64,000 bases of DNA. Source: Schizophyllum amplum. Taxonomy: Eukaryota; Basidiomycota; Agaricomycetes; Agaricales; Schizophyllaceae. The notes under the pieces were generated by a model. The model ran no database searches. It was not told where the DNA came from and saw only the letters and a list, made by a program, of their open reading frames with translations. Below are positions 3,386-32,104 of this stretch, piece by piece (position 1 is the first letter of the stretch; each line of letters starts with the position of its first letter). The DNA lies in assembly GCA_007026445.1 (NCBI GenBank), contig VDMD01000071.1, positions 1-64,000 on the forward strand, written 5' to 3'. Both the position numbers and the translations under genes were made by a program.

Positions 3386-3389
3386 CTGC

Positions 3390-4333
3390 GTATGGCATCT
3401 GGGCACTTGTGCGTTCTTCCTTTTGTCTCTGACGGATCTGGCTAACTCGTCCGCCACAGCGGATTGCTGCCAGAACTGGCGCCGGAAGTCTTCTTCTACA
3501 GCGACCAACACACGATGAGTGCTTGGTCGCTGGTGGCACGCTACTTCACACCCCTCGCCCAACCCGTTCTGTACTCTACATTTATCCTTGGCGGTTATAA
3601 GTTGGAACATCCCGCTTTACCCGAATCCGGATACATCGTCAACGTCGACCATGATCACTTCGTGCGCGGAGCTCGACACCTCAGCGATCATCCTCATCTG
3701 CGATCGTACGTACGCCGTCTCGTGCTCGGTGTCTGTGTCGCGGATGGAGCTCAATCGTACGACGCGGATGGATCTCAATCGTACGACGAAGACGGCGTGC
3801 TTGTACGACATGCAGGCGGATTAGACGCCGGTGCGATCGACAACTTAACATCGACCCTCCTCCTGCAAGGCTATCTTCCCAACCTCACCGACCTCCACTT
3901 GCATCCATGTAATCCTCCGCAGGATCGTCGTCCACCCTTCCTTCGTTGTCCACCCTTCCTCATGCCGTACCACATGAACGACATGTTCAGATCGAGGATA
4001 ACATCGTCTACCATATCGCGGCTCGTATTCCACAACTTCGAGATAGGGGGTTGGAAGGCAGGACATATATTGGAGCTGCTCGTGACCGGGGACGTGCACG
4101 ATGTGGCTCTTGTCAGCTGTGTAGTCAGCTCGCAACCTTTGCCTTGGGTGGAGCATTGGCCCCGTCGGATCCCTCCGCATATCAGGTTCAGCATATACAA
4201 CTGCACGGACGGAGAGGGTTCGGATTCGGATGGAGACGGTTCAGATGGGGTTGATTTTGCACGCTGGGTACTGTTGAATCGTCCTTTCGCGACGGTGGAA
4301 CTCGATAACGTGCTGCAATTTCCCTACTGGTAG
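3390..4333 (+). CDS. F-box-like protein
   Basis: Two exons are proposed. Exon 1 is 3390-3406, beginning MASGHF. A 53-bp intron (3407-3459, donor GTGCGT, branch GCTAAC, acceptor CACAG) leads into exon 2 at 3460-4333. The product is about 296 residues. The start reads GLLPELAPEVFFYSDQHTMS and continues AWSLVARYFTPLAQPVLYST, which has the layout of a fungal F-box (LPxEL, then a CSLVCRxF-like helix), though the Cys of the core motif is replaced. F-box proteins are SCF ubiquitin-ligase adaptors; the rest would be the substrate-binding part, without recognised repeats. A short internal duplication gives DGAQSYDADGSQSYDEDG. The ATG lies just outside the repeat block to its left. Assignment to the F-box superfamily is likely but rests on pattern only. 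Confidence 0.6.
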
Positions 4334-4421
4334 CATGTACGATTACTAAGTACAGGTATTAATACACGCAGGTCTCGTATATGCCCTAGGGCCACTTACT
4401 AGTACAAATGTGATCTCTATA

Positions 4422-4618
4422 TTAACCTGCTGTCTTTTTCTGCTTGGAGGGTTGTTCGTTGTCAGCAAGAGCCGATAAAGTAGGTCCGCGAGGGCGCTTC
4501 TTCGTCTCCAAATTGTCCTTCTCTTCCAACAACGTCTGCAGGACTTCTACAGCATCCGAGTTCGGGATGGAGTAGTCTGCCCGATACTCTTGTGTGTCTT
4601 CGACACTGGCACCCATGC
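4422..4618 (-). pseudogene. severed C-terminal tail of the 24.3-27.4 kb transposon-type gene
   Basis: The minus strand reads MGASVEDTQEYRADYSIPNS and ends ...QPSKQKKTAG then stop, about 64 codons. Its first codons overlap the 8-bp sequence GCATGGGT, which also ends the gene fragment at 27376 (…EATCMG). Reading from that fragment across GCATGGGT into this piece keeps the frame. The family's usual C-terminus has this same Asp/Ser-rich YxxxxIPDSD-type segment. This is therefore not an independent gene but the 3' end of the gene at 24.3-27.4 kb. It was separated first by insertion of hAT copy 1 and then by inversion of the segment between the hAT copies. Confidence 0.85.
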
Positions 4619-4722
4619 TAAGGCTCCAACCATATAAACTATTTACTGAAAAATTGGGTAATTAGACAGTATAGAGTAAGTATACGGTATATATATAGTA
4701 GTTATATGGTATATATGGTAGA

Positions 4723-7700
4723 TTATTTTGAGGATTTCTTGCTGACCCGACGCTCCACTACCTCATACCACATTGCCTCGTTCTCTAACCACTTCTTTGA
4801 GCATACCAACTGTGTGATAGTCCCAGCTCGGAACGAAGAGCGAGTATCCCTGCAGATGTGGCGTGACTTCGAGAATAGACGCTCGACAGCCACAGATGTG
4901 CCAGGGATGGCTAAAAAGTCCCTTGCCATGCGTGCAACAATCACAAATTCATGGGCATGCTCCTATAAGGGTAAAAATTGTCAGTATAAACACCAGACAA
5001 AAGCCTATCACACACCTTGTACCACATTAAAGGAAAATTGAGATTACCTGCGCCTCCCTCACCAGCCAGCCATCGGTCGGCTTCCGAGCGGGAAGATGCG
5101 CGTTCGGAAGCGATAGGGTCAGGAAGTGCCCCTACAGTCGCAAGGAAGCTGTAGTCATCATCGACGAGCACATCTGATGGAAGGGGTGCTGTCGCGGGCA
5201 CATGGTCTCGAGCGTACTCGTCAAAGACATGCCGAAAGAGGGTGCAAGCACCATTATAGTCGTCGGTGCTCAGGTTTTTGAACCAGTTCGCACGTAGACC
5301 GGGGTGCAATACTGTAGGAAACAATGAGCGAAGGGATTTGGAGAGAGAGAAAAGACGAACCAGTAGCGAGTATGGTGTGCTGAGATTTCTTGACAATAGT
5401 GTAGTACTCCATCAGCTTCTGATGACCAGCAGCGCAAGCCTCGCGTAGACTCTCGTCCAGTGAGGTATCGTTGATGTGCTCTTCGAGGTTTTTGCGCATA
5501 TGCTCATACATGGGAATCGTCCACGGGAGTGTAGGTGTACTCGCCCGGGACATAGTCTTCGTGACCTTAGTGAAGATCTATAGTAGAGTCAAGGCTCAAC
5601 AGCAGGCTATAGCATGAAAGAAGATACCCACCTGTAAGATAGAGTTGAGCTTCTTCAACGTCCCCCACTCTTTCTTGCCGAGGAGCAGGTGACGATATTG
5701 ATCATGCAAGATGACCCACGAATCGATAGCCTATAGCGCACGCGTTAGCAAACAGCCATCAATATGCATTCATGCAACATACCTTGCCAATGAGGAGGCC
5801 ACGCTCCATCATGGCCTGCGTAGAGTTCCAGCGAACCTTCATGTCTCGCACGACCATCAGTCGCGCAAGGGGAGTTGGTGTCTGCCCCGCGGTCATCTGA
5901 CCCCGCAGTTCCTTTTGTGCAGCACTGCGAAATGCGGCACGGCTCTGGGGTGTGCTGACAATCTTCTTGCATGCAGTCCGAAGCTATAGAATGATGTCAG
6001 AGGATACCAGACAGGCAACACTCTTACTCACCTTCTCAAGCGCAGTGAGGTTCTCCTCCTCCTCCTCCTCATCGTCAAACTCCTCCTCATCCTCATCCTG
6101 GACAGCAGACATGTCGATGACCTCGACATCATCATCATCTCCCTCGTCGCCATCATCCCCCTCTGCCTCCCATTCCCGTAAGTCCTCGTCGTCGTCGTAC
6201 GAGAAGTGGATGGGAAAGTGCTTCAAGAAAAGCTCGTAGTAATCTTGCGCGTCTGGATCAGCATCAACCTCCTTCAGAACAGCCAGTATCTTCTGGACGA
6301 CAAGATTGACGACATGGGCGATACATCGAATCTGAGCGTTGTCGGCGTTGAAAGGGATGCCGTAACGGCTCATGAGTAGGCGGGCGATGTAGCGGCAGAG
6401 AACATCGTTAGAGGATACGTTGTCGAGTGCAAGGGCTATGAGGTGAAGGATTGTCAGGCGCATGAACGACAGAAAGAAATGTGGCAAACATATCTTATGC
6501 GCACAGCCCATCCGCTTGAGCGATGACCAGAGGGACTTGGCGCCTCCCTTGCCAGTATGCTCATCACCCTCGAGGTGCCGAAAGTCAACAAGGCGCTCGA
6601 TCATGCGCCAATCGTCGTCGATCCAGTGCGCAATCGTGCCCGCGAACGAAAAGACCATGCCGGCGTTCGTCCAGGTGTCTGTCGAGCAAGCGATCTTGGA
6701 CTTGACAGACTATGACTAGATATTAGTAGAGCAAGGTGAGGTATTGTGCGAGAGACGCACTGCAAGTTCGCGAACGACTGCGTCGTTGAGATCTATGAAT
6801 AGCCGCGCGACTTGATTACGAACAGCGGTATCGGAGGGGAGCGAGAAGTTGCACCGGATGTACTTGAAGAGCCTCTTGCAAGCGGGCTGCTCGCCAGTTG
6901 TAAATGGAAGCCCAGCCTCGAGAATGTAGCCAGCAAAGACGCGCGTGAAGCCGTTCTGCGTGGGAAGAACGGCTGGATTGAGCCATCCGTCCGAAACATA
7001 GGTCGCCATCAGCTCCTTGCTCTTGAGCGTGTACCCCATGTCCCCTGAACGCGTCTCGCCATCTGCACTCGCCGCTGCCGTACCGGCATCGATCTCTGCC
7101 TTGTGCTCGCGCGTATGGGTCGCAAGATTGGACAACTGGGGCTTGATCGGCTCGTCATCGAACGCCACGTCCTTTCCAACTTTGCGGGCGACGGTACGGC
7201 TTCTAGGGATGAGGTGAGTGCCGATTTCGTGAAAAGAAACAAATGGACTAACTGCGAGCAGAACCTGCACTTGAACAGCCAACGATCGCCCTTGTCCGCG
7301 TCTTGGATGGCCTTCGGATCATGCCAGTGCTGCCGGGTCTGATTCTTGGGACCTCGCACTCCCACTGGCCGCCGCTCCGCCTCGCGCTTTTCAACATCAC
7401 GCAAAGCGCCCTCCCCATCCGACTCCGATTCGCTACTACTCAGCTCAACAGCCTCCCTGTCCTTCCCCTTCCCAGACTTCCTGCGCTTCGCGCGGTTCTT
7501 TGTCTACACGCCGGTGAGTGATAGTGTGGGCGTCTGGAACAGACTACTCACCTCCTTCTTTCCCTGCTTTCCTTTAGCACTTGTCCGCGTTTCCGGCTTC
7601 CTCGCCTTCCGCCCGCTGGGCTGTCCCTTCCCCTTGATTGACGCCTGCGCTTCCTTGATGAGGGAGTCCACGTCCGAGTCGTCCACTGCGTCGCTCGAGC

Positions 7701-8600
7701 AGCTCGGTGACTTGACGGACTTGCGCTACATCTGGCGGTGAGTGATGCGCAAGTTAGACTGCAGAAAATGCTCACCTTGTTCGCCTTTTTAGGGCTGTCA
7801 ACAATCTCGTTTCCCAGCTCGTCCACCACCAGCATAGCGTCGCCATTCGAGTCCTCGGACTCGCTCGTATCCTTCGGAGGTGCGTAACTCTTATCTTTCT
7901 TTGAGTCTCCCGGTAGCTGAGGATCTGTACCACTGTCAGACACGCGGCGCTCCTTCGATCGAAGATGGCATACCATTGGGTGGAAGGATGTGCTCCGCCA
8001 GCGCACCGACGCCGAACGATCGCAGTGCCTTCTCTGCGAGCTTCTTCTCATCAGGAACACGCCTCTTCGTAGGTGCTACTGCGGAGGGGTTTCCATTGTC
8101 GTTGTCGGGGATGGTAGGAAGGGAGCCATCATTCGCTGGATCTCTGGTCGTCGTCGTCGTCGTCGTCATTGGCGGTGGCGGTGGCAGAGGTCCATTGCTA
8201 TCACAATATGTTAGTATATATTCTTCAATCTACAATGGATGACGCACACTAGAAGCTGCAGCGCCGTCTTCAAGCGCTCAAGCTTGATCATCATGGGCAC
8301 ATGAAGCATTCCCTGCGCTACGACCGTGCGGGCGACATAGTTGCTGACGGCGTCCATCCCAAATCGCCCCCTCTCTATGTTCAAGAGGTTCCCCTCTGCA
8401 TCACGGCAATCCTCGCCGAACAACACATCGAATCGACTGTTGAAGGTCATCCATGCAGACTCCTTTTGTGGGCCAGTGATTATCTTGTATATCTTGCCGG
8501 ACTTCTCTGCACTTGGAATACTGCTCGGAAGGCGTTTTACAAGGCTTTTGATATCTTGAGCTATGTCTTGACGAGCTTGCTGCTCCTCTGAGGACGCCAT
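4723..8600 (-). CDS. hAT family transposase (copy 1)
   Basis: This cut-and-paste transposase is encoded in more than ten exons separated by introns of about 50 bp. The start is MASSEEQQARQDIAQDIKSL at 8600. In order the protein shows a low-complexity Pro/Thr and acidic/basic N-terminal third, then a BED-type zinc finger (FKCRFC ... LATHTREH). The RNase-H-fold core follows, with Asp motifs STDTWTN and ALDNVSSN, and a long acidic insertion (EEFDDEEEEEEN). It ends in a hAT C-terminal dimerisation region with AIPGTSVAVERLFSKSRHI. All reading frames appear open across the inferred splice sites, so it may be functional. It is identical to copy 2 apart from one Thr/Ser difference in the poly-Thr run. 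Confidence 0.9.
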
Positions 8601-8701
8601 TGTGTAGAAGAACAACAGAACTTGACGCATTGAGAAATTCTCGCCCAGCATCCCACGACCGTGTGAATTCCACGCTAGATCCGGATGTCAAGGCACGACG
8701 A

Positions 8702-8723
8702 AATTGACCGCGCGCGGTCAATT
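8702..8723. promoter_or_regulatory. 22-bp perfect palindrome upstream of hAT transposase (copy 1)
   Basis: A perfect palindrome centred on CGCGCGCG with outer arms AATTGACC/GGTCAATT lies about 100 bp upstream of the transposase ATG. The same site is in copy 2 at 27840-27861. It could be a transposase- or host-factor binding site; this is inference from position and symmetry. Confidence 0.4.
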
Positions 8724-9186
8724 CCGTTGTGCTGACATAAGCGCGTGCGGCGTTCCCCCCATGTTCCAGCAATTTCTGAGGGAAGCTGTGGTGGGAGCGA
8801 GCTACTATCTACCAAGTCTTTCATATTGTCCAGCTCTCCATTGTTCATTCATCAGCCGACTCTGAGAACACAGGCTGCAGCACTCGGCAGTGTCGGCACT
8901 CGCCGTGTGACAATGTGATGTGACACAATGTCCAAGCTGTTGCCTTTTACGTGCGCCCAGGCCAGGGTGCACGAAAAAGGAAGGTGCGCCGGTGCTCCCT
9001 TGCTCTGAAACACAATCCCTCTGCATCCTCGACTGAAAAGAACAACATATCTAACATCTGAGAGATCTGTTTACTATATAGTATACTATATAGTTACCCA
9101 GTACAACAAGACCACTAATTAGAGAGTAATTCTATACGGTAAAAACCGTATATATATGGTAATTAATTTATATGGTTGGAGCCTTA

Positions 9187-9617
9187 ATGGAGCAGCCACA
9201 TCTGCTGCTATTGGATAACCGACCATCTCAAGGCAGAGGAATGTGCCTTGAACGGCTAGTTACATATTCATTCCGCACAGAGAGGTACAAGAGGCATGTA
9301 GAAATGTTCTGAGATCCAACCTTCAGATTGCCCAGGCCATCTACTCAAGAGGGTGTAATGGCAACTGGTTCGAGTAAATCAGCATGGGTTCCAACAGGTT
9401 CCATCACATCTTCATAGCCGTGATATCATACCTCCTTTCTTGGAATTGATCCGGTCAGACGCAAGCAGTTAAGCTGGATCAGCAAACCGCAAAAGGCAGT
9501 TACCAGGGACGGCGTGTGAACAGTGCTGCCACGATTCTCGCCCAGGTCTTCCCACGCAAATGATTTTCTTCTATAGGGAGGATGATGCAAAAATATAGGT
9601 GTAAGACAGTGTGTACT
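9187..9617. other. no gene recognised
   Basis: This 430-bp stretch lies between the hAT end and the RING-like gene. It has only short, unsupported open frames and no repeat that I recognise. Confidence 0.5.
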
Positions 9618-10717
9618 TCAGAGCAAGAGCTGGGCCAAACTAGCGGGTGGTAAGCGGTCACGGTCTCCTAAAAGGTCCGCAAGCTCGCCCAGAGCACCAA
9701 CAATCAAGGGAACCCCCTCAACCTCATGATCCTGACAGCCATCACCGGGGCAAAGGCGGGACGGCCGACGAGTGATTAAGAACTGCTGCAAACAGAACTT
9801 ACAGACAGTGCTTCCACAACATAGCAGTCTGCTCAAGGCTCATCAGCATTATAATCTCTACAAAAAGACCATACGCACGTCTGTGGCTCACACCAGATTT
9901 CACCACAAAGGAAGCACAAGCACGCATCGCTCACTCTTGTAACCTAAGCCAAGGTTAGCAGGCATGAGGATGAGGGGAGGGAATGAGCAGACTTGGGTTT
10001 GAAGCTTCCTTGCGCTCTCCTCCGCATCCTGTTGCTGGGTATGGGCGACATCTGCGGCCGCGTTCGCTTGCTGAGCGACCTCCTCCAAATCCTCCCGTGA
10101 TATCTCAGCGGCATCCTGTGCAGTATGTGCTGCATCACGCTCCTCAATCGCACCGTCTCGCTCAGCCTCAGCTACCGCTTTTTCTTCGAGGGCCTGATCT
10201 CGTTCTGCCTGAACCTGTCCGCGCTGGCTGTAGGCGAGGTTGCGCTCAGTGATGACTTGGCGGAGATGAGCGGCTGCGTCCTGATCTAGGACCGTAGCCT
10301 GAAGGCGTGCAAGCTCGATACGGGCCAAGGCCAGGTCGTGCTGCACATCGTCGCGTTCCCGGTGAGCAAGATCTCGCGCTGCCCATGCCTGGTCTCTCTG
10401 AGCCCACAGCTCTCGGCGCGCCTTGAAGAGGTCATCTATGATCTCCGCTGCAGTCTGGTTGGGTATACGCAACCGTATCTGACATGTACGACAAGGCTCA
10501 GGCTGTATCATAGAGGCTGTTAGCCTTGATTGAAGCATAGCGGGATTGTACCACGCACCACAAACTGTGTCGATGATCGTATCCGCGTACGTGCAGCAGA
10601 GGCAGGCATAGAGTACGGAGGCTCGTCTTCGTCCGAGGAGATATATTGTATGCCACCGCGCTCTGCAGCTGGTGTGGCTTGGTGAGTGGGACGGGCAGAC
10701 ATGAGCGCCAGGGACAA
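9618..10717 (-). CDS. coiled-coil protein with C-terminal RING-like zinc finger
   Basis: Four exons are proposed: about 10552-10717, 9993-10516, 9879-9943 and 9618-9828. Introns 2 and 3 have good GT..AG ends, and one carries a TGCTAAC branch site. The exact donor of intron 1 is uncertain. The N-terminus has a short acidic SSDEDEPP segment. Residues of about 70-230 form a long charged coiled coil built of RDxAxxERDxA-type heptads. The C-terminus reads CDACLCFLCGEIWCEPQTLL then CCGSTVCKFCLQQF and later CPGDGC, the spacing of a RING finger. The usual ligand His in CGHxxC is Ser here (CCGSTVC), so zinc binding at that site, and E3 ligase activity, may be lost or altered. A role as an E3 ligase is inference. 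The gene lies inside the inverted segment. Confidence 0.6.
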
Positions 10718-10852
10718 TCAACTCTGATCAGGCCCCTTGTTTGAAAGTGAATCGTTTGGCACATCTCTTAATTTGTGGCAAGGTGACCAGTACAGGGGCT
10801 CCATTCAGGTAATCTATGGATAGATAATGGTTATTCTGGCAAACAAGTCCCT

Positions 10853-12773
10853 TTACCACCCCAAAAGGCTATCCCCAGAGTGACCAGATGACACACTGGA
10901 AGTATCGCCATCTACAGGAGCGAAGAAATGAGCATGCGCTGAATCGATATCGCTCCGATGGCCTAGGGCGTCAGGAGAGTCACGCTCTGACCCGTAAAAG
11001 TCCCACCCAATGATACCCATGCGGCAAACCACACAGTCCGATGTCGGTCGGCGTTCACCTATCTTCCACCATCGCAGGGACCCCGCTGCGCCCTTGAGCA
11101 GCATGCGTTTAGCGTCAGCGAGACGCTCCATCTCGTGTCCCTCCACTGCGGGATCGTACTCGGAATACTTCCGTGATTGGACGATGTCGACATGAGGTCT
11201 GGCCACATCTTGGCAGGCCCTGGGGCGCTCCACAAAGTTCGTGTGGATATCGAAGCGCCCAAGCTCGGGCCACAGATGGATGTAGTCATTGAGATAATGC
11301 TCGTCGCAGTAACGGGAGGTGACGTCGAGATTGAGGGGGGGATATGAATGAGCGTGCATGGTGCTGTGAAGGCATCGTTCCTGAATCATGCGGACAAGTG
11401 CGCTATTGGCGGAGGTGCCGGGTTGAAGAACACTAGGGCCCAAGCGCAACCACCGCAGCACCGGCAAGACACCAGAGGCTAGAGCTTCGAGGAACGAAGG
11501 ACTGCCTATGTAGATGGTGCGATCGCCTCGCAAAGAATCGCCTGCAACTGCACCACCTTCTGCGAGGCCATGCACGCTTAGCGTCTCCAGTGTGGGCACA
11601 GCGCGCATCCATGAGACCCATATGGCTCCTTCCTCCCGCACGAAGACCAAAATGGCATGTCGTAGCGTGGGTGTGTGATGTCCCATGATAGCCGCGTTTG
11701 TTTCGCTGATGATGGCAGCTGATGGTGCCCTCTGGTCGCGATCTCGGCTTTCCAGATACAGAAGATTCAGATGAGGAAAGGATGTCTGGACGAGCAGATC
11801 GCGCATGCCGGCTGTTGAGCATGCGAGCCTCAACCGCACCAATGCTGGTGCACGTAGAACAGGTCCCGGTGAGATCTGAGCTGGCAAGGACCACGCAGAA
11901 CGATAGACGATGCCGAGGTCTTGGACGGCAGGCGTGGCTCCTAGCGTTCGGCCCCAGTCGTTAAGCGTAGGGCCCGCATCCATGGCCTCATGCTCCACAC
12001 GAAAGCTAGAGAGCTCCTTCCATGGTATAGGCAGCAGGTTGATAGGGGAGCTGTGAGCGCCAGCAATAATGGACATCCTCCCATATCGGCGAAGCATGTC
12101 GGTGTCTGTAAGGGCAGCGAGCCAGCCGTCGATTCCTTCCCATGAACCGTCCTGAGAGAAGATTGTGAGAAAAATGTGACCCTAGTCAACAGGCTGTCTG
12201 GCGCACCTTGTCCATCTCCGAGTCCACCTCCAGATATATGAGCTGTGAGATGCTTATGGGACGCCATTGAATGCAGGGGAAGTGCCGGGAACGAAGTATG
12301 AATGTATGCCAGCGGGGGGAGTGGACGGCGAGCAGCTGCATAGTGTCGCGAAGGATACTGGGATAGAGATCATGTTCTGGACTCAGGCGGACAATGATGG
12401 TGATTTGAATGAGCTCAGATGCAGAATATTTGAGCGCCAGACCCAGGGCGACAAGGCGCTCTGCGCTGACATTGTCATCCACAACGATGATCAACACCGA
12501 CCAGAGACACGGCTCGCCTTGTATGGCCTGTCGCCATTGGCGACAAAGACGGGCGTAGCCTAGAAGCGACCATGGATGAGCGAGTACTGGATATCCACGG
12601 CTCTCCAGGTTGTGGTGAGCAGGCGCTGTGCGTTCCTCCGCTGCCAACACATTGAAGAGGATCCTCTGAATGACATTGGTTGGCAGCCGCTGAGCGGGGC
12701 TCAGAGTGAGCAATGAGGTGTCGGATGAATGCGCCATGGTGACCGTGAAGGGAGAGGCCGGTCGGAGAGGCAC
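10853..12773 (-). CDS. F-box protein with long substrate-binding region
   Basis: Two exons: 12207-12773 and 10853-12151, joined across a 55-bp intron (12152-12206; GTGCGC..CTCAG) that keeps frame as ...SEMDK|DGSWEG.... The protein is about 621 residues. Near residues 28-80 it has LPTNVIQRILFNVLAAEE and WSLLGYARLCRQWRQAIQ followed by PCLWSVLIIVVD, a typical Agaricomycete F-box plus the conserved P.LW.. segment. The remainder resembles the irregular leucine-rich region of such proteins (for example APALVRLRLACST and LPVLRWLRLG). Expected role: substrate adaptor of an SCF ubiquitin ligase; the target is unknown. MAHSSDTSL, 12 residues downstream, is an alternative start. It looks intact and like a host gene. 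Confidence 0.8.
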
Positions 12774-14099
12774 AGCAGATAAGAGTCAGACGGTGAGACA
12801 AACATGCAGGAAAAGCAAATGATCATACCGCCTGCTCAGGCTGACCATCACACGAGATGGATTTTGCAGGCTTGCCACAAATGCATTCGCTTTACGCGAA
12901 TGAGCAGACTAAGCACATGCAGGGGCGGCTCAAGAATGAGCATTGATGTCCTATAGTTTGCCTATGAGATATACATGCGTAACTCCCCTTACAGCTTTGC
13001 AATCCGACCGCTGGAAGACCTGCGTTGTTGCATCAGTCACGAAGCTTCGGGCTGTATCACGCCACTTGCCTGGCATTGCCACCAGGGCCATAGGTCCGCC
13101 CGACGAAGTCACGATGAGCAAAAGACCCGGCATCGGGGGACCGATTCAGCACACCGGCCACTGTCAAAATCGACAAAGGGGGGCCACAAAGCGGTTTGCC
13201 ACCAGAATCACTTGTTACGCGTGTAGGGATCGATGCCGAGGTAACATTCCAAGGGGAAGTGGCTGTTAAGGGTGGTAAACAAATGTGCATGGGTCGTACC
13301 GAGCTGAAAATGAGCATACCTCCAGACATGGGCAACATCTTGGGCAAGGGCGTATAAGGCATGGGATTAACGGCGCGTGCGCGAACTCTGGTGCGGTCTT
13401 GACGGCAGGGGAAGAGACGCGAGGAGGCACCATGACCAACATTACAGATGTTACGCGCAGCAGCGATTCATACCTCGCAATTGGGAGGGCGCCCAAGGGT
13501 GCGATAACGGGTTGAGCTGGTGCGCCGACTCGGCGGAAGCAGGACTGTCGATCACTGATTTCCAAGTCGAGATGGATCAGCGGCTGGAGCGGCCCGGGAC
13601 AGCCGTCAACGCTTCTCTTCCAACGACCACAGCCGATGTCGTCGTTTTTACCCATTCCCTTCCCCTTACTCCTCTGCCACGTCAAGAACACTCTCCCCCC
13701 CTCTCTTTGCAACTCCCCCTTGAATCAACGCACTCCGAAACGGTGTGAAGCGGCAGATTTGGAGGGTGACTTGACGCATGGGGTGTATCAGCGCAGGTGC
13801 GTCGGCTTCACCCAGTTCGCAGACACGAGCACTCACAAAAAATTCTCATAGGTCGTAAGTACCGACACTTGCCGGTAGAGGAGAGTGCTAGGAGCTGGCG
13901 CTAGTGCCGGCGCCTGCAACAGCGCGGGTGCAGCATGCGCGCCGAGGGAATCGCGTGCGCTGTGTGCGAGGATCCAGCGCCTGTGAGACCCAAGGACGAG
14001 TGCGGACGCTGAGGATGGCAAGCACCAGCGGCGTCATCATACCGCTCGCCCTCGCGAGCGTGCACGCGTGCAAGCCCACACGATCACCCCATCCTGCCG
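12774..14099. other. no gene recognised
   Basis: About 1.3 kb with only short frames in several phases. I see no domain or consistent splice structure and no clear repeat before the tandem array begins. Confidence 0.4.
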
Positions 14100-15470
14100 T
14101 GCCGCCAAACACGTCGACACTGCTCGTCAGTCTCGCATTCGTACCGGCTACCAACCGCATATTCGAGATCCTCGACATCTCCCCAAACACCACCATGCCT
14201 AAGGAGGACGCTGTGGCGTTGTCGTCGATTCTCGCCAGCGCCAAAGACGTCAATGCCGCGCGTCTGCCTCGCATCCGTACCTCCCTACAACCACATCCCC
14301 ACGACCCTCATCATCTGCTCGAAGACCTATATTGCTCAGAACGACGCCCCGGCGGCCCCTCGGCGCCGATCACCCTCACCCGCCCCATCTCGCCGCGTCG
14401 GCAGAGATCTTGACGCCGGGCCTTCGTTTCGCGTCCGTACCGGCCACCAACGACATCGCCCCGACCCCCGACCTCCCCTCGAACATCCGCGTTGCCCAGA
14501 ACGACGCCGCGAGGTCGTCTTCGCTGCGCGTCGTCACTGCTTGTCGGGGTGCACGCCATCTCGCCGCGTCGCCAAAGAACTTGACGCAGGGCGCTCATCT
14601 CGCGCCCGTTCCGCCCCCCAACCACATCGCCCCGACCCCCGACCTCCCCTCGAGCACCCCCGTTGCCCAGAACGACGCCGCGAGGTTGTCGTCGCTGCGC
14701 GTCGTCGTTGCTCGTTGGGTGCGCGCCATTTCGCCGCGTCGCCAAAGGACTTGACGCCGGGCGCTCATCTCGCGCCCGTTCTGCCCCCCAACCACATCGA
14801 CATGACCTTCGGCATCCCGTCGAACATCCGCGTTGCCCAGAACGACACCGGGGGGTCGTTGTCCTTGCTCGTCGGGGTGCACGCCATTTCGCCGCCTCGC
14901 CAGAGAACATGATGCCGCGCGCTCAGCTCACGCCCGTTCCGCCCCCCAACCACATCGCTACGACCCCCGACATCACATCAAATATACTCATCGCCCAGAA
15001 CGGCGCCGCGGGATCGTTGTTGTTGCTCGTCGGGGTGCGCGCCATTTCGCCGCGTCGCCAAAGAACTTGATGCCGCGCGCTCATCTCGCGCCCGTTCCGC
15101 CCCCCAACCACATCGCCCCACCCCCGACCTCCCCTCGAACACCCCCGTTCCCCAGAACGATGCTGCGTCGTCGTCATCGCCGATCGCCCTCACCTCCCCC
15201 ATTGCGCCGCGTCCGCAAAGGTTGTACCAGCGCGCGCTTCATACCCGCCCGTTCCGCCCCTCAACCACATCCCCACAACCCCTGACATCCCCTCTATTAT
15301 CTCCGCTGCTCAGAATGGCACTGCATTGTCGTTGTCGGCGCGCGCGGCGTGCACTCGATCTCGGCGCGCCGCCGAAGGGTGTAAGGCCACGCGTTCATTA
15401 CACATCCGTTCCGCCCCCCTCCCCCCCCCCAGCCAGATTTTCGGGACCCTCGACATCCTTCCATAACCTA
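14100..15470. repeat. degenerate tandem array, about 158-170-bp units
   Basis: The recurring start of the unit, a form of CGCTCATCTCGCGCCCGTTCC, appears near 14121, 14258, 14421, 14591, 14761, 14919, 15077, 15235 and 15391. Spacing is about 163-170 bp at first and then 156-158 bp. Each unit also holds a CCCAACCACATCGCC word, a GCCCAGAACGACG word and a CGCCATTTCGCCGCGTCG word. Middle units are most alike and the outer ones decay, as expected for an array grown by unequal exchange. Open frames across the array (repeats of APVPPPNHIAPTPDLPS) follow from the repeat and are not evidence of a gene. Confidence 0.85.
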
Positions 15471-16195
15471 TTGCTCGTATAGTACCTACCTACATATATA
15501 TATCACAAATAATAACGTTGTTTACACAATTTAGCGTGTGCACATGTTTGACCATACCTTGTGCAGCATGCTTGCTTGCCTCCCACGTCTTAGCTGTCAA
15601 AAATCTCACTTTGCCCGTGGACACCGTCCTCTGCCGCCCGCGCCTGTTGGCGGCGGCGCAGCGAGCGAGGCAACGTCGGGGGCGGGCGCCGGCTCAGCGC
15701 GGCGCATCAGGCCCGGAGCGCCGTACCTGCCGGCTGCTGCAATGCGACCTTGCCTTATCCCTTCGGCGTCACAATCCTATCGGGGTGGGCCCTCGAAGAA
15801 TGGTACCTGCGATTCGGTAAGTGAGATGGCGAAGCTTGCAGCGGGATCTGACAATGCCGCAGCGAGATTGTGCGTCCCCACCGGGGCGTCCTCACCGCGT
15901 CGCTGCCTGCGCTCACCGATCGTCGAGCCTGTGCAGCTCAAGAAGGCTGCACGCACCACACACGTCGCCCATACGCGTTGCCAGCTGGCGCCCACATTCC
16001 TCGATTGCGAGCGGACTCGATGGAGACGCTGCGGCCACTTTATCTGGTTCCGCCCTCCTGCCATGCGCGGGTGCTGTTGTGGGGTGCGTTTACCGCCCAT
16101 GTCCCCTGATTGTGCCAAGCTTATAGGTCGTCTTTTCAGCCATATATGTCTTTGCCATCCTCTCGCTCCCCTCCCCCCATCCCACCTCTTTCATC
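15471..16195. other. no gene recognised
   Basis: This gap between the tandem array and the TET/JBP gene contains a short TA-rich tract near 15490-15505 and overlapping unsupported frames. It presumably holds the promoter of the gene at 16196. Confidence 0.4.
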
Positions 16196-18829: not shown

Positions 18830-19230
18830 ATACCTTGTTATATATATATACTGGCTTTACTAGATAGAGAAATTGCCTTGTTGACACGCATCTCAGAACA
18901 TGCTGTGCTTTATGATGCCCTATTTGACCAGTAAACTCATATGCAGTAAGGATAAAGAGCGTACATGGATTTAAGGCTCAACACACAGTGCGGCACAAGC
19001 AGGTGCAAACACAGAAGCTCCAAACACAACAAGTATAAACACAGATGTTCCAAGAACAACCAAGTCGTACAAGAATTCCTCCCTCGCCCTCGGATGCCCA
19101 GAATGATGAACAAGGTAGCAGCTGGCCTTGTTGCCTTGTGCGAGCATGCAAATCTGAACCTTGTTGCAGGGCAAAGAGAAAATATTGGCGACGCAACGCC
19201 TTGCGGGCAACCCGTCAATACATGACACAA
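18830..19230. other. intergenic, nothing recognised
   Basis: About 400 bp between the converging TET/JBP gene and the minus-strand gene ending at 19231. It begins with a short TATA run near 18841-18851. A Lys/Cys-rich open frame around 18965-19225 has no supporting features. Confidence 0.4.
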
Positions 19231-22200: not shown

Positions 22201-23763
22201 CGAGACTCTCAGAGCGCGGACGTGTAAGCGTGCTAGGACACAAGTACAGAATGCAAGACAGTGGATGGCTGGGGTTAGTCTCCGGCCACAGCATACGGTG
22301 GCAACGCTCAGGCCAGCATGCATGCTCCTGGCTGGGCTGGTACACATCAGCAGGTGCCGTATATCGGCTGATGGTTGTTAGAGGAGCCGTGAAGCGTGTT
22401 TGTCCCCGTGGGCCTGGCATGAAGTAAGAGGATGTTCACAAGACTTAAGCACACATACCAATGAAAACTGTGAATGGAGTCAGAGATTTTGTGCCCTTCT
22501 TGGGAGCAACAGGCGGGTTAGGAAGCCCAACGCTACCATTGCGACGGAGCAGCTGCATGCTGAAGTTGCTGGTGCGTACGTCCGGGTGGGGCTCTAAGCG
22601 AAACCGGTCATCCTTTACAACGTCGGTCTTGCGCGAGGAGCTGACGAGGGTAGGCTTGTATATGACCCATGATGATAGCTCGTAGGAATCCGTGCCGTCT
22701 GGACTGTCGTTGGGAGGGATGGTGATGCCGACCTTCTTGGCGTGGGTGCGAAGAGCATTGTCAATGGCTAGGAAGAGGGGCAGGTGGTTATGGGACGCAA
22801 AGGTGGCGTGGCAAGTCAGATGATTTGCCTGGTAGGAAGGGATGCGGGATGCGAGGGTGGCTGGCGTATATATCGTGCGGAAGGCATGGTTCACCTGACC
22901 CTAGAGTTAAGAGAGTGAGCAGGTCTCAGGACTATACTAGAGAATGTGTGCACGGACATTGCATGGTACAATGACAATGAAGATCGACATATTCGAGGTC
23001 TTCACGGTGGCTGGAAGTCCGGCTGCAGAGGGCCCCTGAAGAACTTCGGCCTTTGGTCGAGGGCCCATATTCCGGCGTGCCATAGAGCTACCCCTTCCCT
23101 GATTGGCGTCACGAGTAGGTCCAACATCAGGAGTCGCATGGGATTCGGGAAGACGCGCATTGATGCTTGCAACCCAGAAGCTAGCAGGAGGAACACTGGA
23201 TGCTACACCTGTAGACCGAACTGGTGTCATTGGGATAGGGCGTTCAGGGCTTGTAGGCGGAGCCGCCGTCATATCCGATCTGGAAACAACAGGCAGTTGG
23301 GAAGGCGATGCATGAAGCTGAGGACTGAGCAGCCCACTGGTCTGCCTATAAGCTGGTCAGCCGCCACTACAAATGAGGTGTATTATGGACGCACTGGGCA
23401 GGCGATGGAACCGGGAATTGGCTGGTGCTCATAAGTGCAAGAATGATGTGCTCATGCTGGCCCCATGGTTGACCGCAGCAGCAGACAGATTGAATGGACC
23501 AGGGCCCAAGATCTCTCTGCCAAGTAACTTTAGAAGGAAGCGAGTAAGGAGAGACGGCAACGCACAGGCCAGAAAAGGGGACAGTTCGATGTTAAACATC
23601 CACCTCGACGAAGTGGTGACTTGACGGGGTACATAGGATCCTCAGCATGATACCAATACTCGTGTGAGCAGAAGTGACACTTCTGGTCGGGACCAAGTTG
23701 CGGAAGCTGTAACAGACCGGGTGTCAAAAGAGCACCACAGACAGAGAGATTGTGCACGCACAT
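19231..23763 (-). CDS. large transposon-associated protein with N-terminal Cys/His clusters
   Basis: A multi-exon gene of roughly 1000 codons. The start MCVHNLSVCGALLTPGLLQL at 23763 is chosen because it leads directly into the first Cys/His cluster, CHFCSHEYWYH ... GGCLTSNC. A spliced second cluster, CCCGQPWGQHEH, follows. The middle is Ser/Pro-rich (for example PRLLSPPPFSEALYSDDL). A structured C-terminal half includes PDQAWVDRILPGVLLRHMNK and DIDIFMTHETMRSVLYPWPE. Introns I can place include 19532-20253 (722 bp, holding a MITE) and 20683-20735; further introns lie near 21.35, 22.17 and 22.45 kb. I recall similar N-terminal CxC..H pairs in repetitive Agaricomycete proteins, so I take it as an element-encoded gene, but the biochemical role is unknown. 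It appears open throughout. Confidence 0.6.
19560..20226. mobile_element. MITE-like element inside an intron
   Basis: The outer about 85 bp on each side are inverted copies. Both read, from outside in, a CATxTGGTGC word, then CCGGAC, TCATGTGG, TTGCCGGACGT and CGCCGG. It is about 0.67 kb with no coding potential, and sits wholly within the 722-bp intron of the minus-strand gene. GTGAGC and CTAG splice ends outside it are preserved, so the exons still join in frame (…GRHI|GMMVHS…). The exact ends and any target duplication are not settled. Confidence 0.65.
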
Positions 23764-24034
23764 AGGCAGGGATTGGATTCTGCGTGTCGCCTTGCATAAC
23801 AAACCACCGACTGCATGGATGGGGGCTGCTGGAACATGCAGGGTGATGGCATCCAACGCGCGGGACATATGCTTGGAGAAGGGTTGACATGACTGCAACT
23901 AGCAAGAAACTCCAGCTGCTACTCAGCGATGGTCACGGTATGGGGCTGATGCCAAAGCAGACCATTGGAGCCAAGATAAGGCTTAGGCACAAGAGCCAGA
24001 TCTGGCAGGTGAGATAGGCGTGATAAGCTGATTG

Positions 24035-24266
24035 CCAGTGACTTGAAATGCGTGAGCGAAAGCACTAGGGACTTCTCTACGCGCGTGATTGAAGGCACTA
24101 GTGACTCTCGAACGCGTGATTGAAAGCACTATCGTGACTCTCGAATGCGTGATTGAAGGCACTATCGTGACTCTCGAATGCGTGAGCTCACGCATTGCAG
24201 ACTGACTCTCGATTGCGTGAAGGGGGCCTGCTAGTGAGTCAGTCGCCCTGGGTTTTGTCCAAGATC
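24035..24266. other. terminal and subterminal repeats of an unidentified DNA transposon
   Basis: Several near-copies of a unit GACTCTCGAATGCGTGATTG, about 29 bp apart, run up to 24200. They end in CCTGGGTTTTGTCC followed by AAGATC at 24266, exactly where the coding sequence of the next gene begins. A very similar terminus (…CCTGGGTTTTGTCCAGAATC) with CACGCG-rich subterminal repeats lies at 59162-59589, bordering a paralogue. I read both as ends of the same transposon family inserted in these genes. Confidence 0.6.
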
Positions 24267-27200
24267 TACAACCATAACCTCGATGTGCATGTACCCACGC
24301 CCCGAGATGTCGACCGGATAGCCAACGCACTGAAGCAGGGTACGGTCTGCCACGGCAAGGACGGGACCGTTATTGCCATTGCCGCAATTGCTGACGACGA
24401 GCACTACGCGCCTGTTCCCATCCTGCTCTCGCCGTCGTGCAAGAAGGAGACTGGAGACGAGCTTGCCAAGTGGCTCTGTGAGGTCGTTGATGTTTGGGAG
24501 GAACACGAGTACGGGAAGCGACTTCACGGCCCTATCCGTACCGTAGCAAGCGACGGAGAGTCGTCGTTTCGTGCCGCCCGCTTCAAGCTCTGTATGACGG
24601 AGTCTCTCGATACCTCGGAACCACTCGGCGAGCTGCTATCCTCGCTTGTCGGACTCAATCTTCAGACGGGACCTCGGGGTCTGCTAGGGACGTGTGACCC
24701 CAAGCATGTCATAAAGCGTATGTCCCCCGGCAGTTATTTCTTTTATGACCAGATGCTAACTATGTGGGATAGGTTTTGCAACCTGGCTACGAAGTCCGAC
24801 CGGCCTCCTTGTCGGGAAAACCACACTCATGCCTGGCGATTTCTTGCGTGCGCTCGCGCGTCTGCCTCACATGACGGAGGAGAAAGCGCGACACCTCATG
24901 GACCCTGCAGACAAGCAGAACGTTCCGAAGGCTGTCTCTCTCATCCAAGCGCTACTTGAGATTGAGGAGAAGGCTGAGCCTCCCACAAACCCCGCCGAGG
25001 CTCACCGTCATTCCCTCGTGATATTCGTGGCAAAGACGCTTGGCTTCTTCGTCAGACCATTCATCGACTTGAACATGGACTTGGCCGAGCAAGTTCGCTC
25101 ACATTCGACGTACACGCACCTAGTCTCAGCAATGCAGCTCAAGCATGGGCTGGGATTTCTCACCGGCGCGCTCCTGGCCGACTCACTCGCCATCGTCAAG
25201 GATGAGATGCATCAGATTGCGCGTCTCCAGCTCCTCGACCGCAAAATTCGCTATTTCTTCATCCTGGTCGGCACGGACCGCCTCGAGGTCCTCTTCTCGA
25301 ACGTGCGCACCCAGGACCACAGCCGCAACTTCGATGCCCTTCAGCTCGTACAGAAGCTCAGCATCGGAGCTGAGGTTGGCGCTATTCTCGAACGCAATCC
25401 AGACATCGACCCCGGTCACAAGCGCCTGAACGTCAGCGACACGATGGGCGTCGACCACGTCAACCCGATATCCGTGACGGGCGAGGTCAGCGTTGGGAGT
25501 GTCAACCTTCGGCGCGAGTGGCCGGGGGGAGGGGAAGATGCAAATGACCTGCTTGTCCAGTACCTTGGGCCCGACGCTCGCGTAGATTTCAAACCAATCT
25601 TCAAACAGAATAGTGGCGACTTCCTGCGTCTCAATGGAAAGGACTACGTTGGATCGCGTTGGACCGCAGATGATGCTCGCTCGGAGTCCACAGAAGTCGA
25701 CAAGGATTCAACCCATCCATCCCCATCTGACCCCGCCCCTCACTCTATTGCACTCGAGTCGTCGGATTCCGGCAGCTCAGTCGATCTCGAAGACCTTCCC
25801 GAAGGCATGGATATCGAGGATTACCTCACCGCTGAGGAACTCGATGCGAACGATGTCTCGCCTCCTGGTAGCCGCCAGGATCGGCTCTTCTACAACGTCG
25901 ACGGGCGAAAATTTTACAAAGCGAGCTACATTGCTGCGAAGCTGACCCCAGAGCATGCGCGCAAAGTAACTCTTCGTCCTCTACGTGCTCGAGGTGTGAC
26001 AGTAGAGCAGTCATTGCGGCGCGGGGATTCACGCGCGCTGAATCTCACCGACAATGATGGGAGCAGTCAGCTGAAGACGGGGGACCTCGTTGCAACGCTC
26101 GTGCACATTGAGAAGACAGTCTGTCTAGCTGTCCTCGAAGTTCGAGGCATGACCATGGGTTCGGCAAAGCGCTCCGTGGACGCTATACCCATACAGGACC
26201 TCACGCGCACTGCCGCTGACCGAGTCGTCACCATCACCGGCCAGATATTGGACCTGGAGGCATACAGCAGCGAGGACGCTCACTCGCTCGAACCGCTTAC
26301 GAGCTGGCGGTGGTCGGGAGAGTTTGTGCGGTTCAACTCCCCTCGCAGTGCCACTGCAATTGCGACGCAGAAACAGTTCATGCTGCAGGTCCCGGCACCG
26401 TCATTCGTATCCTGTCGCCCCTTATTGTCCCTGCGTCATCGGACATCACGACAACTGTGCCAGTCGTTGAAGATGACCAGCCTCTTTCCGACTCTGGTGA
26501 ACCGAGAACCAACCACGACACGCCGGCGGACGTGCATCGCCCACCGGCGCTTACTGTCACATGGTCATTTCCATCGTCTGACCTAGACGACGCACTTCTG
26601 GACATGTGGTCGTCTCTGACGTCGGACTCCAAGGACATCTTCAGCAATCTTCAGCTAATTCCCTCTCTCTCCAATGTCGAATTGCCTTACCGGGATTGCT
26701 CAAGTGGGTGCTCTACTTGCAAACTAGCTGGATTTGTATCAACTGACTCATATTAGACGACCAGGCCAAGTTTGTCGTTGCGGCGGAGGACATGCCCGCG
26801 CACGCCAGTGTTGTCAAGAAGCCCGGGAGTACAGTGGTACCCTGCAAGCTCTGTGACGCACATATCAAGATCAACGGAATGCGCAGACATGTCGGAGAGC
26901 ATATATTACGCTCTCTGTACGACGTGCCAGACTCTAGGCTGACAGCGCCCAACGAAACGGTGAGCAGCTCAAATGTGGCAAATGTTTGGGTGAATTCTGT
27001 TACTGATCTCGAGCAGCCTTTCGTAAATCCGTGCGGGTGGTGCGGACTTGAAGACTGCACGACACAGATCGTCTCCCGAAAGGGCAAGGCGGACACAATC
27101 ATCTCGAGCTGCGAGTACCACTACGAGCGCATGCAATACGAGGCCGCGAAGCGATTCAGCCCCGCATCACCGTGCACCAACGTCCCCCTTCATTACCCTC

Positions 27201-27376
27201 TCTGCACTCTCTCGCTCTCGGGACAGCGGAGAACGATATGGAAGTACAATGCACTCTTTCATTTCGCTACAGAGCATATCGTACGGGCGGAGGATGGCAG
27301 TGACGAGTTTCCACAAGTTCCAGACGAGTTTTTAGTTGCCACATTCATTACTACACAGGAGGCGACGTGCATGGGT
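24267..27376 (+). pseudogene. C-terminal part of a large RNase-H-like transposon protein (gene B)
   Basis: This is a truncated copy of a repetitive Agaricomycete protein family. Its N-terminus is replaced by a transposon end at 24266 and its last about 64 codons lie at 4422-4618. An intron at 24718-24772 joins ...DPKHVIK to RFATWL...; later introns lie near 26.72 and 26.96-27.02 kb. Visible landmarks are TVASDGESSF (candidate second catalytic Asp), LMDPADKQNVPKAVSLIQ, and GTDRLEVLFSNVRTQDHSRN (candidate Glu, reminiscent of the P-element/THAP9 GTDxLExxFxxxR motif). A C2H2-like finger, CKLCDAHIKINGMRRHVGEH, and a Cys/His cluster CGWCGLEDC ... SPCTNVPLHYPLC follow. A frame change near 26390-26400 looks like a small indel. 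The first catalytic Asp would be in the missing N-half. It is not functional as it stands. Confidence 0.75.
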
Positions 27377-27839
27377 TAAGGCTCCAACCATATAAATTAA
27401 TTACCATATATATACGGTTTTTACCGTATAGAATTACTCTCTAATTAGTGGTCTTGTTGTACTGGGTAACTATATAGTATACTATATAGTAAACAGATCT
27501 CTCAGATGTTAGATATGTTGTTCTTTTCAGTCGAGGATGCAGAGGGATTGTGTTTCAGAGCAAGGGAGCACCGGCGCACCTTCCTTTTTCGTGCACCCTG
27601 GCCTGGGCGCACGTAAAAGGCAACAGCTTGGACATTGTGTCACATCACATTGTCACACGGCGAGTGCCGACACTGCCGAGTGCTGCAGCCTGTGTTCTCA
27701 GAGTCGGCTGATGAATGAACAATGGAGAGCTGGACAATATGAAAGACTTGGTAGATAGTAGCTCGCTCCCACCACAGCTTCCCTCAGAAATTGCTGGAAC
27801 ATGGGGGGAACGCCGCACGCGCTTATGTCAGCACAACGG

Positions 27840-27861
27840 AATTGACCGCGCGCGGTCAATT
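27840..27861. promoter_or_regulatory. 22-bp perfect palindrome upstream of hAT transposase (copy 2)
   Basis: The sequence is the same as the site at 8702-8723. It sits about 100 bp before the transposase ATG and is symmetric around CGCGCGCG. Confidence 0.4.
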
Positions 27862-27962
27862 TCGTCGTGCCTTGACATCCGGATCTAGCGTGGAATTCAC
27901 ACGGTCGTGGGATGCTGGGCGAGAATTTCTCAATGCGTCAAGTTCTGTTGTTCTTCTACACA

Positions 27963-30900
27963 ATGGCGTCCTCAGAGGAGCAGCAAGCTCGTCAAGACAT
28001 AGCTCAAGATATCAAAAGCCTTGTAAAACGCCTTCCGAGCAGTATTCCAAGTGCAGAGAAGTCCGGCAAGATATACAAGATAATCACTGGCCCACAAAAG
28101 GAGTCTGCATGGATGACCTTCAACAGTCGATTCGATGTGTTGTTCGGCGAGGATTGCCGTGATGCAGAGGGGAACCTCTTGAACATAGAGAGGGGGCGAT
28201 TTGGGATGGACGCCGTCAGCAACTATGTCGCCCGCACGGTCGTAGCGCAGGGAATGCTTCATGTGCCCATGATGATCAAGCTTGAGCGCTTGAAGACGGC
28301 GCTGCAGCTTCTAGTGTGCGTCATCCATTGTAGATTGAAGAATATATACTAACATATTGTGATAGCAATGGACCTCTGCCACCGCCACCGCCAATGACGA
28401 CGACGACGACGACGTCCAGAGATCCAGCGAATGATGGCTCCCTTCCTACCATCCCCGACAACGACAATGGAAACCCCTCCGCAGTAGCACCTACGAAGAG
28501 GCGTGTTCCTGATGAGAAGAAGCTCGCAGAGAAGGCACTGCGATCGTTCGGCGTCGGTGCGCTGGCGGAGCACATCCTTCCACCCAATGGTATGCCATCT
28601 TCGATCGAAGGAGCGCCGCGTGTCTGACAGTGGTACAGATCCTCAGCTACCGGGAGACTCAAAGAAAGATAAGAGTTACGCACCTCCGAAGGATACGAGC
28701 GAGTCCGAGGACTCGAATGGCGACGCTATGCTGGTGGTGGACGAGCTGGGAAACGAGATTGTTGACAGCCCTAAAAAGGCGAACAAGGTGAGCATTTTCT
28801 GCAGTCTAACTTGCGCATCACTCACCGCCAGATGTAGCGCAAGTCCGTCAAGTCACCGAGCTGCTCGAGCGACGCAGTGGACGACTCGGACGTGGACTCC
28901 CTCATCAAGGAAGCGCAGGCGTCAATCAAGGGGAAGGGACAGCCCAGCGGGCGGAAGGCGAGGAAGCCGGAAACGCGGACAAGTGCTAAAGGAAAGCAGG
29001 GAAAGAAGGAGGTGAGTAGTCTGTTCCAGACGCCCACACTATCACTCACCGGCGTGTAGACAAAGAACCGCGCGAAGCGCAGGAAGTCTGGGAAGGGGAA
29101 GGACAGGGAGGCTGTTGAGCTGAGTAGTAGCGAATCGGAGTCGGATGGGGAGGGCGCTTTGCGTGATGTTGAAAAGCGCGAGGCGGAGCGGCGGCCAGTG
29201 GGAGTGCGAGGTCCCAAGAATCAGACCCGGCAGCACTGGCATGATCCGAAGGCCATCCAAGACGCGGACAAGGGCGATCGTTGGCTGTTCAAGTGCAGGT
29301 TCTGCTCGCAGTTAGTCCATTTGTTTCTTTTCACGAAATCGGCACTCACCTCATCCCTAGAAGCCGTACCGTCGCCCGCAAAGTTGGAAAGGACGTGGCG
29401 TTCGATGACGAGCCGATCAAGCCCCAGTTGTCCAATCTTGCGACCCATACGCGCGAGCACAAGGCAGAGATCGATGCCGGTACGGCAGCGGCGAGTGCAG
29501 ATGGCGAGACGCGTTCAGGGGACATGGGGTACACGCTCAAGAGCAAGGAGCTGATGGCGACCTATGTTTCGGACGGATGGCTCAATCCAGCCGTTCTTCC
29601 CACGCAGAACGGCTTCACGCGCGTCTTTGCTGGCTACATTCTCGAGGCTGGGCTTCCATTTACAACTGGCGAGCAGCCCGCTTGCAAGAGGCTCTTCAAG
29701 TACATCCGGTGCAACTTCTCGCTCCCCTCCGATACCGCTGTTCGTAATCAAGTCGCGCGGCTATTCATAGATCTCAACGACGCAGTCGTTCGCGAACTTG
29801 CAGTGCGTCTCTCGCACAATACCTCACCTTGCTCTACTAATATCTAGTCATAGTCTGTCAAGTCCAAGATCGCTTGCTCGACAGACACCTGGACGAACGC
29901 CGGCATGGTCTTTTCGTTCGCGGGCACGATTGCGCACTGGATCGACGACGATTGGCGCATGATCGAGCGCCTTGTTGACTTTCGGCACCTCGAGGGTGAT
30001 GAGCATACTGGCAAGGGAGGCGCCAAGTCCCTCTGGTCATCGCTCAAGCGGATGGGCTGTGCGCATAAGATATGTTTGCCACATTTCTTTCTGTCGTTCA
30101 TGCGCCTGACAATCCTTCACCTCATAGCCCTTGCACTCGACAACGTATCCTCTAACGATGTTCTCTGCCGCTACATCGCCCGCCTACTCATGAGCCGTTA
30201 CGGCATCCCTTTCAACGCCGACAACGCTCAGATTCGATGTATCGCCCATGTCGTCAATCTTGTCGTCCAGAAGATACTGGCTGTTCTGAAGGAGGTTGAT
30301 GCTGATCCAGACGCGCAAGATTACTACGAGCTTTTCTTGAAGCACTTTCCCATCCACTTCTCGTACGACGACGACGAGGACTTACGGGAATGGGAGGCAG
30401 AGGGGGATGATGGCGACGAGGGAGATGATGATGATGTCGAGGTCATCGACATGTCTGCTGTCCAGGATGAGGATGAGGAGGAGTTTGACGATGAGGAGGA
30501 GGAGGAGGAGAACCTCACTGCGCTTGAGAAGGTGAGTAAGAGTGTTGCCTGTCTGGTATCCTCTGACATCATTCTATAGCTTCGGACTGCATGCAAGAAG
30601 ATTGTCAGCACACCCCAGAGCCGTGCCGCATTTCGCAGTGCTGCACAAAAGGAACTGCGGGGTCAGATGACCGCGGGGCAGACACCAACTCCCCTTGCGC
30701 GACTGATGGTCGTGCGAGACATGAAGGTTCGCTGGAACTCTACGCAGGCCATGATGGAGCGTGGCCTCCTCATTGGCAAGGTATGTTGCATGAATGCATA
30801 TTGATGGCTGTTTGCTAACGCGTGCGCTATAGGCTATCGATTCGTGGGTCATCTCGCATGATCAATATCGTCACCTGCTCCTCGGCAAGAAAGAGTGGGG

Positions 30901-31840
30901 GACGTTGAAGAAGCTCAACTCTATCTTACAGGTGGGTATCTTCTTTCATGCTATAGCCTGCTGTTGAGCCTTGACTCTACTATAGATCTTCACTAAGGTC
31001 ACGAAGACTATGTCCCGGGCGAGTACACCTACACTCCCGTGGACGATTCCCATGTATGAGCATATGCGCAAAAACCTCGAAGAGCACATCAACGATACCT
31101 CACTGGACGAGAGTCTACGCGAGGCTTGCGCTGCTGGTCATCAGAAGCTGATGGAGTACTACACTATTGTCAAGAAATCTCAGCACACCATACTCGCTAC
31201 TGGTTCGTCTTTTCTCTCTCTCCAAATCCCTTCGCTCATTGTTTCCTACAGTATTGCACCCCGGTCTACGTGCGAACTGGTTCAAAAACCTGAGCACCGA
31301 CGACTATAATGGTGCTTGCACCCTCTTTCGGCATGTCTTTGACGAGTACGCTCGAGACCATGTGCCCGCGACAGCACCCCTTCCATCAGATGTGCTCGTC
31401 GATGATGACTACAGCTTCCTTGCGACTGTAGGGGCACTTCCTGACCCTATCGCTTCCGAACGCGCATCTTCCCGCTCGGAAGCCGACCGATGGTTGGCTG
31501 GTGAGGGAGGCGCAGGTAATCTCAATTTTCCTTTAATGTGGTACAAGGTGTGTGATAGGCTTTTGTCTGGTGTTTATACTGACAATTTTTACCCTTATAG
31601 GAGCATGCCCATGAATTTGTGATTGTTGCACGCATGGCAAGGGACTTTTTAGCCATCCCTGGCACATCTGTGGCTGTCGAGCGTCTATTCTCGAAGTCAC
31701 GCCACATCTGCAGGGATACTCGCTCTTCGTTCCGAGCTGGGACTATCACACAGTTGGTATGCTCAAAGAAGTGGTTAGAGAACGAGGCAATGTGGTATGA
31801 GGTAGTGGAGCGTCGGGTCAGCAAGAAATCCTCAAAATAA
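27963..31840 (+). CDS. hAT family transposase (copy 2)
   Basis: The start MASSEEQQARQDIAQDIKSL at 27963 fits a first exon ending at a GTGCGT donor near 28317; the next exon begins NGPLPPPPPM followed by a Thr run. Domains are as in copy 1: BED finger, split RNase-H-like core with STDTWTN and ALDNVSSN, acidic insertion, and the dimerisation block with SVAVERLFSKSRHI near the C-terminus, ending ...RVSKKSSK. The one residue difference seen is Ser for Thr at the end of the Thr run. Both copies look coding-competent. Confidence 0.9.
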
Positions 31841-32104
31841 TCTACCATATATACCATATAACTACTATATATATACCGTATACTTACTCTATACTGTCTA
31901 ATTACCCAATTTTTCAGTAAATAGTTTATATGGTTGGAGCCTTATGCTCCATTGCACTAGTGTATTTGCAACGATCATGGGGCCGTAGTGATGCGGCTAT
32001 ACTGTTTCCGAAGACGCAGTGGAAAACGGACGTGTGGTGAGCACTCTCCTTTCTCTGTCCATCTGCACTCACTCAGTACTCTCTCAACACCCTCATGCAC
32101 TGCA

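Follow-up and report, generated by a model that had tools for sequence, protein, structure and literature searches.

An 18.2-kb inversion bounded by two hAT elements with exchanged target duplications in the assembled genome of Schizophyllum amplum

Inversion 2z3 of Drosophila buzzatii was generated by Galileo elements of the P superfamily, which are flanked by 7-bp target duplications; as described in the part of that report drawn on here, non-inverted chromosomes were examined, the element copies were shown to be chimeric, and it was this chimerism that decided the mechanism (PMC2775673). In maize inversions produced by alternative transposition of Ac/Ds elements, both breakpoints share a duplication that arose in the event, and the segment between the elements has been lost, according to the sections of the source used here (PMC8225341). 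For the ToxhAT inversion of Bipolaris sorokiniana WAI2411, the authors treated recombination as a strong alternative in the portion of the paper cited (PMC6737239).

The stretch of DNA analysed here, referred to as the window, comprises bases 1-64000 of a 130,728-bp contig (C279) in the 49.65-Mb, 309-contig assembly of Schizophyllum amplum. This species is a wood-decay agaric of the Schizophyllaceae. Two hAT copies stand in opposite orientation in the window, one at each breakpoint of an inverted segment.

Octamers at the two hAT copies

The elements, their flanking octamers and the segment between them are arranged as follows.

4611..4618, + strand: ACCCATGC, the site-A octamer on the left side of copy 1, matching 27369-27376 in reverse complement
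4619..9186, + strand: hAT copy 1, 4568 bp, termini TAAGGCTCCAACCATATAAA, transposase on the minus strand
9187..9194, + strand: octamer ATGGAGCA, displaced half of site B, right of copy 1, matching 31945-31952 in reverse complement
9187..27376: inverted segment, 18,190 bp including both inner octamers, restoring both duplications when flipped
27369..27376, + strand: octamer GCATGGGT, other half of site A, left of copy 2
27377..31944, - strand: hAT copy 2, 4568 bp, in the opposite orientation and with 3 differences from copy 1
31945..31952, + strand: site-B octamer TGCTCCAT, right of copy 2

The two copies aligned by BLAST at 99.934% identity over 4569 columns, the last of which is a chance match in the flanks. 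Three mismatches were counted, at element positions 451, 1090 and 3530, where the initial annotation had noticed a single differing base. Its assignment of both elements to the hAT group held, with the PF05699 hAT C-terminal dimerisation domain found on the minus strand of copy 1 at 4726-4962 (E 8.8e-13, 48.3 bits against a cut-off of 21.4). The transposase reading frame lies in pieces, as if split by introns, and a Pfam scan of the ORF pieces besides the dimerisation exon returned no family above cut-off.

In the present order neither copy has a matched pair of octamers, copy 1 being flanked by ACCCATGC/ATGGAGCA and copy 2 by GCATGGGT/TGCTCCAT. Flipping 9187-27376 gave ACCCATGC/ACCCATGC and TGCTCCAT/TGCTCCAT, perfect 8-bp duplications at both copies, so that the earlier description of an 18.2-kb flipped segment between inverted hAT copies, with swapped octamers that are both restored by the flip, was reproduced. 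The chance of two such octamer exchanges is 4^-16, or about 2e-10, with uniform bases.

Other members of the family served as a control. A genome search with the terminal 16-mer, allowing one mismatch, found 31 sites compared with 0 for the reversed pattern. Among 13 two-ended copies outside the window, a set that excludes the single ends C275, C288 and C1:2132255 and from which more diverged copies may be missing, 10 were bordered, beyond their TAAGGCTCC-type termini, by perfect 8-bp duplications and three had no matched octamers (C1:2133414, C264 and C266:714954). An 8-bp target duplication together with short terminal inverted repeats agrees with the hAT superfamily, and both window copies show it once the segment is flipped. 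Unmatched octamers are thus not rare by themselves, and it is the exact exchange that counts. When 33 end octamers of the family, window included, were compared in either orientation with at most one mismatch allowed, only the two exchanged pairs matched between different elements. What the octamers show is that the sequence as assembled contains an inversion whose breakpoints coincide with the elements; they do not give its mechanism.

Relatives of the hAT family with recognisable termini and unmatched octamers, three in number in the fetched loci (L050 1660-2354, L044 1666-6183 and L057 255-921), could each be the trace of a further rearrangement or simply of an insertion that is old.

By our own reading of the ORF list the inverted segment holds about five ORF clusters, so the earlier count of about ten reversed genes appears too high. 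The segment also contains direct repeats that recur about every 170 bp and have diverged to 75-81% likeness (14381-15419). A 670-bp piece within it (19553-20222; window 19547-20229) is composite, 252 bp of it matching C112:5900-6151 and 418 bp matching C248:227330-227747, both with full identity, with AGAGGGT on both sides in the window and CCCAGTT, read by eye, at the outer end of both matching pieces. From these matches the piece seems to derive by internal deletion from a large element with one end on C112 and the other on C248; if this reading were true, the two contigs would be neighbours.

The split gene at site A

At site A the element interrupts a basidiomycete gene, the parts of which now lie at opposite breakpoints.

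24186..27376 (approximate ORF extent), + strand: 5' part of the split gene, ending at codons MG against copy 2
4425..4618, - strand: detached 3' end of the split gene, abutting copy 1, with its stop at 4422-4424

The halves are now 23 kb apart and have the octamer 4611-4618 in common; the tail, of 62 residues beginning ASVEDTQEYRADYSIPN, occupies 4425-4610. In the present order the frame of 26747-27376 runs into copy 2, and a deposited Schizophyllum amplum protein labelled 'partial' (BD626DRAFT_414104, P0128), which is 100% identical to the searched stretch of the gene, has its last residue (MG) exactly at the junction with the element. When site A was joined in the flipped order, keeping one octamer, a 272-codon open stretch crossed the junction and gained 62 residues past the present break, up to the stop at 4422-4424. 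Joining the flanks of copy 2 in the present order added 11 residues only, and no present-order join of the copy 1 flanks gave more than 85 open codons.

The split gene has homologues in other mushrooms, and a Pfam scan of it returned no family above cut-off. Of seven homologues found, Collybia nuda among them, six aligned through the flipped junction without gaps, reading MG followed by a tail of the kind ISQEDTQKWRDDNEIPNTD; for the seventh (P0007), the aligned part stops short of the junction. From 97 homologues of the upstream part, 20 matched the 272-residue piece, and two of these, P0129 (Infundibulicybe gibba) and P0195 (Ephemerocybe angulata), cross the junction without a gap. Seventeen of the 20 alignments end before residue 200 and neither support nor oppose the junction; the one left over is the deposited protein P0128, which stops at the junction itself. 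Within the genome each half of the gene (26747-27376 and 4425-4618) has one close match. None of three further matches of the gene (C190, C294 and C113) aligns to the tail, and the one on C190 carries a different tail.

In-frame rejoining of the halves, together with their match to homologues, shows that the flipped order is the older one. Provided that the assembly is right, site A was once a continuous last exon and the present order is derived. The initial annotation had taken the flipped order to be ancestral, and for site A the split gene bears this out on evidence apart from the octamers. The insertion cost the gene its last 62 residues, and the inversion then carried the 5' part 23 kb off. 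This is a mushroom gene doubly broken, by insertion and then by separation from its relocated 3' end. We infer that flipping the segment back would not repair the gene, because the element would still occupy the exon.

At site B the longest ORF over the flipped join is 81 codons, against 85 for the present-order join at the copy 1 flank. The site apparently lies in non-coding DNA, and polarity there rests on the octamers.

These results bear on a reading by coincidence, with two independent insertions whose duplications decayed and no inversion at all. In its favour, three of the 13 other copies are without matched octamers; against it, both exchanges would have to arise by chance at about 2e-10, and the split gene would have to rejoin in frame with homologue support. 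We consider coincidence refuted by the gene test and the octamer odds, its probability being next to nil.

The assembled order and the origin of the inversion

An assembly error would produce the identical octamer pattern if the 18.2-kb segment had been placed backwards between the inverted 4.57-kb repeats, the true chromosome then having the old order and two ordinary insertions. The gene test is compatible with such an error, as it shows only that the flipped order is older. Against it, the window contains no Ns and contigs of the assembly reach 4.7 Mb; no N was present in 72 fetched loci either (263,246 bases, overlaps counted). Where two contigs overlap (C116 and C157, one contig pair, 1.4 kb compared), 6 gap openings but 0 substitutions separate them, the pattern that single-molecule reads would be expected to leave. 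Such reads are commonly longer than 5 kb, and we presume this genome to be a PacBio assembly. Because the overlap differences look like single-molecule read errors, and given an assembly style with no Ns and 4.7-Mb contigs, reads longer than the 4.57-kb repeat are likely. An artefact is quite unlikely, and the assembled order is probably real. No second haplotype and no opposite order was found in the assembly with 5.9-kb queries, 20800-26700 being single-copy apart from short repeats, and the gap-only differences in the C116/C157 overlap likewise gave no sign of a second haplotype. The polymorphism between strains or between dikaryon nuclei that the initial annotation put forward is thus conjectural. 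The 35.5-kb contig C116, which overlaps C157 over the 1.4 kb compared, is perhaps redundant, with long-read style errors.

Repeats make up the left flank as far as 4403. One of them (112-3343), 3.23 kb long and with inverted ends, recurs four times elsewhere with about 100% identity (twice on C281, and on C101 and C280); it interrupts a sequence (1-111 and 3341-4403) that is uninterrupted in C297, C101 and C245, with a 10 bp overlap at the insertion point, and we take it to resemble a Mutator-type insertion. To the right of copy 2, a KDZ transposase (PF18758, E 1.1e-33, 34354-35055) lies between inverted repeats of about 295 bp (32605-32899 and 46184-46477) that are 93% alike and 13.3 kb apart; the gene and its flanking repeats perhaps form one large element.

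For the origin of the inversion, we consider a crossover between two pre-existing copies, the simplest account, probable, judging from the sequence. Two hAT copies would have stood in opposite orientation about 18 kb apart before the flip, each with its own 8-bp duplication. The copy at site A (ACCCATGC) would have lain in the last exon of the conserved basidiomycete gene, that at site B (TGCTCCAT) in apparently non-coding DNA. Non-allelic homologous recombination, by a crossover between the copies, would then have turned the intervening 18.2 kb round, swapping one octamer of each pair and leaving 23 kb between the 5' part of the gene and the 3' end it had lost. A repeat of 4.57 kb at 99.93% identity is a good substrate for crossing over. 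The assembly showed no chromosome in the pre-inversion state with both copies intact.

A symbolic model was used to compare crossover, hybrid element insertion and reversed-ends transposition by the order, orientation and octamers that each predicts. In hybrid element insertion, the hAT transposase would take the left end of the element on one sister chromatid jointly with the right end of its copy on the other sister and insert them 18 kb away, so that inversion and second copy arise at one stroke. In the model this one-step route and crossover agreed in order, in orientation and in octamers, and exchanged duplications do not rule it out according to the part of the Galileo report relied on here (PMC2775673). 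It would also explain why the pair is near-identical when, of the other relatives found, those next in similarity are a truncated copy on C275 (98.8% over 1369 columns) and a full-length copy on C264 (63% overall, 2782/4397). Exchanged duplications and near-identical copies, as hybrid insertion expects, are both present here, but the same pattern follows from crossover; a recent local transposition followed by crossover accounts for the near-identity equally well. Counting against crossover, the near-identity is just as well suited to two products of one element. Hybrid element insertion is a rare type of event, and we regard it as unlikely here. The initial annotation had called an inversion by recombination proved; the inversion pattern stands on the octamers and the split gene, whereas the word proved does not, since hybrid insertion gives the same octamers, as a misassembly would too.

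The three differences between the copies were also considered, and are too few to show chimaerism. At position 451 relatives carry G in three of three cases; at position 3530, which is at a repeat edge, the one informative relative carries A; and at position 1090 relatives give no polarity. By this comparison the derived base at 451 seems to be that of copy 2 and the one at 3530 that of copy 1, and undoing an exchange between these positions would put both derived bases on the site-B element. This pattern fits a crossover inside the element, which it weakly favours over hybrid insertion; it would arise by chance at roughly even odds by our estimate, is not significant, and is suggestive only.

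In reversed-ends transposition, the ends of two directly repeated elements would have been used together, a route known for the hAT elements Ac/Ds in maize, as described in the sections of the source used here (PMC8225341). In the model it leaves one shared octamer pair only, whereas here both pairs are shared, and in the events covered by those sections the inter-element segment is lost (PMC8225341); here the site-A gene rejoins in frame and without gaps relative to homologues. The second exchanged octamer pair rules this route out, and we consider it highly improbable.

A broader possibility, that a fungal hAT transposase made the second copy and the inversion in one step via sister-chromatid ends, or that repeated flipping through the 4.57-kb inverted repeats leads to both orders in one mycelium, is in our view doubtful. 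A haplotype switch between the nuclei of a dikaryon was rejected as, in our judgement, it would create no inversion.

Comparison with known systems

In the open-licence literature, as far as it was covered, the Drosophila cases and ToxhAT were found, and no fungal case like this one was noticed. Like ToxhAT, this is a fungal inversion bounded by transposon termini (PMC6737239); in that case it is the element that is inverted, and duplications were not found, within the portion of the paper cited, whereas the present inversion affects the DNA lying between two elements and has kept its duplications intact. With the maize Ac/Ds inversions, as covered by the sections drawn on, it has in common that each breakpoint carries a hAT element and that the duplications are of 8 bp (PMC8225341), but two duplications are exchanged here and nothing is missing at site A against the homologues.

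The inversion is of the Galileo type, a further case and not a new kind. It differs from Galileo in that the elements are hAT, the duplications are 8 bp long, the host is a mushroom and the segment measures 18 kb; a non-inverted chromosome was not seen, and it is a split gene that shows the older order. It is a useful case, as an inversion with both target duplications intact is accompanied by an independent record of the older order. A single genome thereby yields polarity, the conserved split gene recording which order came first.
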